Origin: Pseudobdellovibrionaceae bacterium | GTDB taxonomy: Bacteria; Bdellovibrionota; Bdellovibrionia; Bdellovibrionales; Bdellovibrionaceae | DNA length: 64,000 nucleotides | Assembly (NCBI GenBank): GCA_019637875.1 | Contig: JAHBUW010000004.1 | Location: 1-64,000 of the forward strand | Direction: 5' to 3' | In this document: positions 14,274 to 15,949 of the stretch, in pieces | Position numbering within the stretch: the stretch's first letter is position 1 | Layout of the letters: each line of letters starts with the position of its first letter | The notes under the pieces: generated by a model | What the model saw: only the letters and a program-made list of their open reading frames with translations | Databases searched by the model: none | Told to the model about the DNA's origin: nothing | Program-made: the position numbers and the translations under genes

Positions 14274-14354
14274 CTGTTTTACTGTCCAGATTTCTGACAT
14301 CGCGACCTCTGCCCGAGCTGTGTTACAAAGCTCTTCTTGGGTGGAGGTTTTTTT

Positions 14355-14999
14355 ATGAAATTAGGTCTGATGGGCGCGGGATTGATCGCGCTGGCCGCGG
14401 TGATGAGCGGTTGCAATAAATCCTCGAACAAGTCCGAAGAACCGGCGGGAAGCGCGGTCACGCCGCAGACGTTTCCGGCTCCGGGACTGACTTTCTATTC
14501 GGACGGGAACTACACGAACGTCGACATCGACGATTCGATCCATTTCGGTAACCGGACCGCGGTTCTCTACTACATGGGGAACGTGGGCTTCGCGGGTCGT
14601 AACGCGACCAATGAGTGCAATCAGTTCATGCGCGCGGGTCGCAATGCGCCCATGCCCGTGGCTTATTCACGTATGGGCGGATATGAAAACCGTTGGCGCG
14701 CGGCGGGCACACGTCGTTATGGTCGCGTGAACTCGCGCCGTGGCGATAGTCTGGGCCAAGTGCAGACTTGGAAGTTGCGGAACGGTCAGAATCTGACGCA
14801 ACTGCAAGGCGGCTGTTACGTGGTTTGTTTGATGGACCGCAACCGTCGTCACGATGCCATGGGCATGTTCTTCGAAGCGAACGCGCAGATGCAGACGCAG
14901 GTGTCGTTCAATATGAGCTTCTCGAATTACCAAGCGCAGTTTTCGGGGGCCTACTATGGACCCAAATTCCAGACCCATGCGCGTGGCGCGATCCGCTAA
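14355..14999 (+). CDS. Lipoprotein of unknown function
   Basis: A 214-residue lipoprotein: lipobox MSGC (Cys about residue 24) after a hydrophobic stretch. The mature part is rich in Arg, Asn, Gly and Met, with RMGGYENRWRAAGTRRYGR and an alternating pattern near the end (SFNMSFSNYQAQFSGAYYGP). No domain recognised. ATG 14355 follows GTGGAGG at 14341-14347. Its own terminator appears to have been separated from it by insertion of the palindromic element just downstream. Confidence 0.75.
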   Translation: MKLGLMGAGLIALAAVMSGCNKSSNKSEEPAGSAVTPQTFPAPGLTFYSDGNYTNVDIDDSIHFGNRTAVLYYMGNVGFAGRNATNECNQFMRAGRNAPMPVAYSRMGGYENRWRAAGTRRYGRVNSRRGDSLGQVQTWKLRNGQNLTQLQGGCYVVCLMDRNRRHDAMGMFFEANAQMQTQVSFNMSFSNYQAQFSGAYYGPKFQTHARGAIR

Positions 15000-15027: not shown

Positions 15028-15249
15028 TGAAAGGCTGAAACTGCACCCTTTCCGTGTTGCAAGTCGTTCCCGGCGCGAGCGGCAAAGTCCTCTCTTTTCG
15101 CTTGGCTGGGACGCGGCCCTCCTGGCCTCACCGCAGAGTCATACGCCATCCAGGCGCTGCGGAGGTCCCATCCAACCGAAAAGAGAGGACTTTACCGCTC
15201 TCCGGAAAAGGGTTTTGCAACACGGAAAGGGTGCAGTTTCTGAAAGGCT
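15028..15249. mobile_element. 204-bp palindromic (MITE-like) insertion with 9-bp direct repeats
   Basis: Outer arms at 15037-15062 and 15215-15240 are perfect 26-bp inverted repeats starting GAAACTGCACCC. Inner arms at 15078-15112 and 15165-15199 match at 32 of 35 positions. The spacers between outer and inner arms are both 15 bases, so the whole element can fold into one long hairpin. TGAAAGGCT occurs directly on both sides (15028-15036 and 15241-15249), as expected for target-site duplication. No open reading frame of its own. The right copy of the duplication forms part of the following terminator stem. Confidence 0.75.
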
Positions 15250-15272
15250 CGACACTCGGTCGGGCCTTTTTT
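15244..15272 (+). terminator. Intrinsic terminator displaced by the palindromic element
   Basis: Stem AAGGCTCGAC (15244-15253), loop ACTCG, GTCGGGCCTT (15259-15268) with one T:G wobble, then Ts. It presumably served the lipoprotein gene ending at 14999 before the element inserted in front of it. Confidence 0.75.
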
Positions 15273-15346: not shown

Positions 15347-15949
15347 GTGATTTCCAGCCTGATGCTTGCCGCTGGCGAGAGTAAAAGAATGGGTCCGCGG
15401 AACAAACTCCTGCTGCCGATGGACGGCGGCACGCTCGTGCGACGAACGGCGAAGGAGCTTGCGAAATTTCCTTTTCAGGAAAGCGTTTTCGTCACCGGCT
15501 ACGAGGCCGACTTGGTGACGCCCGAGCTGATCAGTTTCGACGCCATCCTCACGCACAATGCTCGTTATAAAGAGGGGATGTCGACTTCGTTGAAGGCGGG
15601 CTTGCGGGCGCTGACGAAGCCCTGTGACGGCGTGGTGATCGTTCACGGCGACCGGCCGTCCTTTCGCATCGAAGTCGTGCAAAGGCTGGCGCAAGAATTT
15701 TACAAACGACGAGGACCACTGATCTTGTTCCCGCGATGGCGGGGGCGACGTGGGCATCCGACGTTGGTCTCGCGGCATTTTTTCGATGAGATTTTGAACG
15801 AGTTCGAAGGGGACTACGATCTAGGCTATTTGATGCGCCGGAGTCTCAACGCGGTCTTGCCGATCGATGTAGAGGACGTCGGTGTCACGGAAGACCTCGA
15901 CATCCCCGAAGATGTGCCGGAGCTCAGTCGCTGTCACCTTGGAACGTGA
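15347..15949 (+). CDS. MobA/MocA-like nucleotidyltransferase
   Basis: A 200-residue cytoplasmic protein. It starts with the nucleotide-binding signature of the MobA/MocA NTP-transferase family (MLAAGESKRMGPRNKLLLP), followed by a metal-binding VIVHGDRPSF loop in place of the usual DMP/DQP-type site, and RGRRGHPTLVSR, which fits the substrate-binding GHP motif. Such enzymes transfer a nucleotide to molybdopterin or another phosphorylated acceptor; which one cannot be read from sequence. Start taken at GTG 15347 because GGGGAG precedes it by six bases and translation begins at the family N-terminus; GTG 15341 is possible. The end overlaps the next convergent gene by 26 bases. Confidence 0.8.
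   Translation: MISSLMLAAGESKRMGPRNKLLLPMDGGTLVRRTAKELAKFPFQESVFVTGYEADLVTPELISFDAILTHNARYKEGMSTSLKAGLRALTKPCDGVVIVHGDRPSFRIEVVQRLAQEFYKRRGPLILFPRWRGRRGHPTLVSRHFFDEILNEFEGDYDLGYLMRRSLNAVLPIDVEDVGVTEDLDIPEDVPELSRCHLGT

Follow-up and report, generated by a model that had tools for sequence, protein, structure and literature searches.

The region lies in the genome of a Pseudobdellovibrionaceae bacterium, within a window (the whole stretch of DNA that was analysed) of 64,000 nucleotides. A palindrome of 204 bases is found here between a gene for a lipoprotein-like protein and a gene for a MobA-like NTP transferase, and both of its flanks carry the same 9-bp direct repeat. The insertion sits between the stop codon of the upstream gene and a terminator-like stem (Table 1). 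No homologue of the upstream gene was found among the 39 relatives searched and, because the gene is lineage-specific, no empty site can be demonstrated.

Table 1. Positions of the palindrome, its parts and the neighbouring genes in the window.
Feature	Position	Strand	Remarks
Upstream gene, lipoprotein-like	14337..14999	+	no Pfam match
Left 9-bp target duplication	15028..15036	.	TGAAAGGCT
Whole palindrome, 204 bases	15037..15240
Outer left arm, 26 nt	15037..15062	+	22/26 match to left end of IS1-like element
Internal bubble, left side	15063..15076	+	kept unpaired in the copies of the same genome
Inner left arm	15077..15112	+
Conserved tip, two small hairpins	15113..15164	+	GGA loops displayed on the minus strand
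Tip hairpin P2, GGCC-CTCCT-GGCC	15115..15127	+	from the fold
Tip hairpin P3, CCGCAG...CTGCGG, inner CGCC-ATCCA-GGCG	15131..15162	+	from the fold
Inner right arm	15165..15200	+
Internal bubble, right side	15201..15214	+
Outer right arm, 26 nt	15215..15240	+
Right 9-bp target duplication	15241..15249	.	TGAAAGGCT
Terminator-like stem, partly formed by the right duplication	15242..15270	+	from the fold; unflagged by a simple scan
Downstream gene, MobA-like NTP transferase	15347..15949	+	PF12804, E 8.6e-30

The outer arms of the palindrome are 100% complementary over 26 nt and the inner arms 92% complementary over 36 nt. As RNA, the segment 15000-15330 folds with an energy of -168.7 kcal/mol, compared with -108.3 +/- 5.0 kcal/mol for shuffled sequences (z = -12). 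An earlier sequence-only reading of this DNA had described a near-perfect palindrome inserted with a 9-bp target duplication, and both elements of that description are borne out. The unpaired stretches that separate the outer from the inner arms are of equal length, as had been claimed, although each contains 14 nt and not 15. The same reading made the right copy of the duplication the left part of a terminator stem; this agrees with the RNA fold, in which a 12-bp terminator-like stem is present, but the stem was not flagged by a simple terminator scan. No plausible gene lies inside the 204-nt hairpin, again as had been stated, and the open reading frames that cross it are mechanical. The hairpin has no match above the gathering score in Rfam, where the only hit, a hairpin below the threshold, is MIR5084 with 34.8 versus 110 bits.

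The genome to which the window belongs (3.98 Mb, 99.6% complete) contains 14 dispersed copies, found by DNA search and confirmed with a core covariance model, and each copy forms its own long hairpin. The central ~65 nt, which correspond to the tip, are nearly invariant among these copies and the arms differ. Exact 9-bp direct repeats directly abut the outer-arm ends in five of the 14: TGAAAGGCT in L001, TATCGAGTA in L003, AAACTAGAA in L008, CTTCATTTC in L011 and 9 bp of AAATAAAAAC in L005. Shuffled controls gave few comparable duplication scores, and the duplications observed are all at the same end position. The five repeats at the element ends are the pattern that transposition with a staggered cut of 9 bp leaves behind, and the identification of the palindrome as a mobile element is well supported. 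A stop codon is located at the hairpin junction in L003, L007, L008, L009 and L010; in L003, L007 and L009 this codon is a TAG completed by the first G of the element itself. In the copies of relatives no 9-bp duplications were detected, so that for these it is dispersal only that points to mobility.

A 966-bp element with a 306-aa ORF is found on another contig of the same genome (L210:1501-2466; G000:C8:27957-28922). It has 25-nt inverted ends that are 80% complementary, carries its own perfect 9-bp duplication (AATTTCTAA) and immediately follows a stop codon (TTC TAA). Its end was located with a looser 20-base pattern of the outer arm, which gave a sole extra non-hairpin match (G000:C8:27957); a search with the 23-bp end of the L008 type returned hairpins only. 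Loose matches of the end pattern on contigs C5 and C9 were discarded, there being no hairpin at either and no paired end on C9. Aligning the left end of the element with the outer arms gives 25 identical positions of 26 for L003 and 22 of 26 for the window copy, with no unrelated 26-mer of the 64-kb window scoring above 16. Arms of the L008 type match the IS end at 16 of 26 positions only, and a sister IS would therefore be needed for those copies.

The 306-aa protein is recognised by the NCBIfam IS1 transposase model (E 2.1e-11) with 44 bits, below the curated cut-off of 100, and in Pfam it has weak helix-turn-helix matches only. Judged from its sequence it is probably a transposase distantly related to IS1. 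The target duplications of IS1 elements are mostly 9 bp in length. No relatives of this transposase were found in viral contigs and none matched in plasmids. The kinship of the hairpin with the IS1-like element is well supported, and this element is likely to be the autonomous partner of the hairpins. With matching ends, and with 9-bp duplications and stop-codon sites in both, the hairpin is best interpreted as a non-autonomous element that depends on this IS or on sister elements. The sequence-only reading had argued that movement would need a protein encoded elsewhere, and had proposed searching the genome for the arms and for an IS with matching terminal repeats. Both searches were successful, and the 14 copies, the five 9-bp duplications and the matching IS1-like element support the argument. 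A lone copy conserved at the same place in distant relatives, which had been named as the mark of an immobile sequence, is not what was found.

The hairpins extend well beyond this genome. Searching with the core model identified them in 17 of 40 genomes of a set of relatives that included the genome of the window, in 38 of 66 genomes of the family, in 53 of 141 of the order and in 61 of 369 of the phylum; the counts of the larger scans are lower bounds because stricter filters were used. In the family scan nearly all genomes of one genus (g7, probably Bdellovibrio) contain hairpins, and none was found in genus g3. The stems of relatives have sequences that are unrelated between genomes, although each stem is nearly perfectly self-complementary, and the tip keeps one design, consisting of a small hairpin with a loop of the NTCCN type followed by a second hairpin with the same type of loop. 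TCC is present in the first tip loop of 107 of 131 copies and in the second loop of 85 of 121, and tips from other classes of the phylum have the same appearance. There are strong signs that the tip is the part under sequence selection.

An exact arm search of a genome-contig collection gave no match. A tip pattern gave 17 scattered matches in the same collection, none of them hairpins, with the pattern demanding two bases at CTC-CCGC where most tips have one. Viral contigs contained no exact tip match, phages and plasmids gave no DNA match to the hairpin, and no description of these hairpins was found in the Bdellovibrio papers that were searched. Some single loci have features of their own. 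In a probable Bdellovibrio (L106, 1460-1670; G058) the outer arm GAAAACTGGCCCC resembles the ends in the genome of the window. In L057 (about 1440-1710; G037:C89) one hairpin lies within the tip of a second, which looks like the insertion of one element into another. The locus L042 (about 1492-1613; G000:C19:12568-12683) holds a long palindrome whose arms include AAAGGTACCTTCTTCCTTTTGG and which encloses short direct repeats of the type GTGCGCCACTAGCC; as a different palindrome it was rejected as a member of the family.

The arms vary freely in sequence and stay complementary. The arm conservation that the sequence-only reading had proposed is accordingly not seen, and the conserved part, the tip, had not been picked out there. 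In the alignment of the copies from the window's genome 31 of 34 arm pairs have changed on both sides, not one cell has moved to another standard pair by a change on one side only, and doubly changed cells number 138 compared with 36 in shuffles; no G-U intermediates are found in these stems. In probable Bdellovibrio species the same gene, of ~502 aa, is followed by a hairpin at a constant position. Between these orthologous hairpins the arms have changed at as many as 16 of 36 positions, almost every change having its mirror in the opposite arm, and the arms mostly diverge more than the upstream sequence does. Indels are also mirrored, as seen for L118 compared with L126 and L145 compared with L146. 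The mirrored substitutions and indels fit the prediction of DNA template switching between the arms. Such switching between hairpin arms has been documented (PMC8794818), and template switching is also described at quasipalindromes in E. coli (PMC7202029).

We infer that the stems are recopied at the DNA level by template switching, a mechanism of stem maintenance that the mirrored changes support. The internal bubble in the copies of the window's genome is kept and not homogenised, and template switching alone thus does not explain everything. None of the 66 family genomes, with or without hairpins, scores over the cut-off for SbcD (TIGR00619), for which the E. coli control was positive; a major palindrome nuclease is therefore possibly missing from the family. 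At L043 (1452-1477 and 1576-1601; G019) an exact 26-base direct duplication, covering part of the tip and the right arm, adjoins the hairpin. This may be the trace of a template-switch event.

The mismatches in the stems are distributed unevenly. Read on the TCC strand, A-C exceeds G-T by 110:28, C-T exceeds G-A by 109:12 and C-C exceeds G-G by 29:9, counts that include orthologous copies and are to that extent non-independent. Isolated mismatches show the same asymmetry (37:10 and 22:3), and A-C is more frequent than G-T in every group of genomes. On the complementary (GGA) strand the excess becomes G-U, G-A and G-G, the mildest kinds of mismatch. Folding, too, is more stable for the GGA strand, in 107 of the 131 copies and in every one of the 14 from the window's genome. 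At least one GGA hairpin loop is formed on this (minus) strand by 127 of the 131 tips, as against 18 on the other strand; at least two such loops are formed by 83 tips on the GGA strand and by none on the other, all 14 copies of the window's genome having two. Some tip loops contain CGA instead of GGA. The mismatch types, folding energies and GGA loops are together read as selection on the folded GGA strand, which would act as RNA or as single-stranded DNA. The asymmetry could instead arise if hairpins of the other strand were corrected preferentially. The sequence-only reading had suggested selection on RNA or cruciform structure, but the strand that is read with the gene bears no trace of wobble-tolerant selection.

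In their genomic context, counted with a crude gene caller, no hairpins lie inside genes, 40 lie between convergent genes and 9 between divergent genes. Of the 62 cases with a stop codon no more than 60 nt away, 56 have the TCC strand as sense strand (56:6, p 3e-11, a value inflated by orthologues), and the GGA strand is therefore mostly antisense to the neighbouring gene. An orientation bias was not seen in the copies of the window's genome (5:3). Since the bias is present in relatives and not in these copies, it is probably retention, and not insertion, that depends on orientation. At L044, L074, L075, L110, L117, L124, L142, L192 and L193 the hairpins form head-to-head pairs. These always have the TCC strand on the plus strand first and then on the minus, tens to several hundred bases apart, and the pairing is only partly explained by convergent genes.

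The reading that we consider probable is that of a MITE-like element with IS1-like ends, the stems of which are recopied at the DNA level and the tip of which is selected on the GGA strand. An IS1-like transposase, provided in trans, would recognise the 26-bp outer arms and would place the element, flanked by a 9-bp duplication, at gene 3' ends. The element would often land at or within the stop codon, and its first G could then complete a TAG. The cargo would be the long stem together with the conserved two-looped tip of the phylum-wide hairpin family. Under little sequence constraint, the stem would be kept palindromic as one arm is recopied from the other, most simply by template switching in a hairpin formed during replication, in a lineage with no recognised SbcD hairpin nuclease. 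The tip would be selected as folded on the strand with GGA in its two loops. Against this account stand the IS1 score below the cut-off, the retained bubble, the lack of duplications in relatives and the poor match of the L008-type arms. A wider proposal, possible but doubtful, is that the hairpins are strand-specific devices found throughout the phylum, in which a two-loop GGA tip, folded as RNA or as single-stranded DNA, is placed on an arbitrary stem kept perfect by DNA copying and not by selection on each base, has been spread to gene 3' ends by an IS1-like route in at least one lineage, and is read by a trans-acting protein, with CsrA as a candidate.

Other readings account for parts of these observations. 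If the element were simply a MITE, with a hairpin that only results from its two terminal repeats and with tips that are alike because the copies are recent, then the ends common to the copies and the IS and the target duplications would be explained. However, unrelated stems in different families and classes of the phylum bear the same tip design, several probable Bdellovibrio species have retained hairpins at orthologous sites, and the orientation after stop codons is biased. The phylum-wide tip largely refutes this reading, which is improbable. Slightly better placed, but still unlikely, is a structured RNA in which selection on pairing preserves the long stem at each base, with no special copying of the DNA. 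Strong covariation and the strand-specific mismatch types and folding stability agree with such an RNA. Selection of this kind is argued against by the missing G-U intermediates, by the mirrored indels and by the scarcity of G-U across 130 stems (of ~5,000 pairs, 28 are G-U when read on the TCC strand and 110 when read on the GGA strand), and single mismatches in stems of at least 36 bp should hardly be selected against.

The GGA loops are also the main feature of a reading in which the element is a mobile CsrA-binding RNA, where the GGA strand would be transcribed and its two loops would titrate CsrA. The strand that appears structural is indeed the GGA strand, nearly all tips show the motif in a loop, and csrA is present in 65 of the 66 family genomes. 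However, csrA is equally present in genomes free of hairpins, so that its presence has no link to theirs, some loops have CGA, most copies have the GGA strand antisense to the gene beside them, and a search of the window gave no sigma-70-like promoter for this strand; we give this reading as little credence as the simple MITE. Least probable by far is a REP-like extragenic palindrome at gene 3' ends that is moved by a Y1/RAYT transposase. The intergenic hairpins near gene ends resemble such elements and genes for Y1 transposases are frequent in the family, but the 9-bp duplications and IS1-like ends do not fit, and only three listed hairpins, among well over 100, have a Y1 gene at a distance of 3.4 kb or less, for which reason linkage to Y1/RAYT was rejected.

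The preferred reading, a MITE-like element with a DNA-copied stem and a selected tip, places the hairpins beside several known systems. With the MITEs of insertion sequences they share short length, the absence of coding sequence, IS-type terminal repeats, a high copy number, 9-bp target duplications and the presence in the genome of an IS whose ends match. They differ in that almost the whole element is one stem, which varies in sequence between copies and yet remains paired, and in that the central tip is conserved across the phylum and insertion occurs at stop codons. REP/BIME and REPIN sequences (RAYT, Y1) are likewise dispersed extragenic hairpins near gene 3' ends; the present hairpins differ from them in their target duplications, their IS1-like ends and the absence of close Y1 linkage. 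REP arms are conserved in sequence, unlike those of the present hairpins. In the ERIC/IRU and RU families the sequence is common along the whole element, whereas in the hairpin family only the tip is common. ERIC/IRU and RU of enterobacteria are, as here, mobile, hairpin-forming intergenic elements of 100-200 nt (PMC2229807, PMC2759123). RNA hairpins maintained by template switching have one arm copied from the other as DNA, as is proposed here, with multibase compensatory changes (PMC8794818), but those cases concern the histories of RNA genes and short stems, whereas here a mobile, dispersed bacterial family has stems of 30-58 bp and more. Small RNAs that bind CsrA/RsmA also show several GGA motifs in hairpin loops; the hairpins differ from these in that the GGA strand is mostly antisense, the loops sometimes have CGA, and there is no link with csrA.

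More than 130 distinct hairpins provide a dense natural data set on a long-standing question, the way in which long stems stay perfectly paired as their sequence changes. The changes in the stems are symmetric, indels included, and pass through no G-U intermediates, as DNA template switching predicts. The element is also an example of mobile DNA able to insert inside a stop codon without breaking the stop. Finally, the tip represents an unnamed structured motif that is spread across probable Bdellovibrio and its relatives, and its partner molecule can be tested for.
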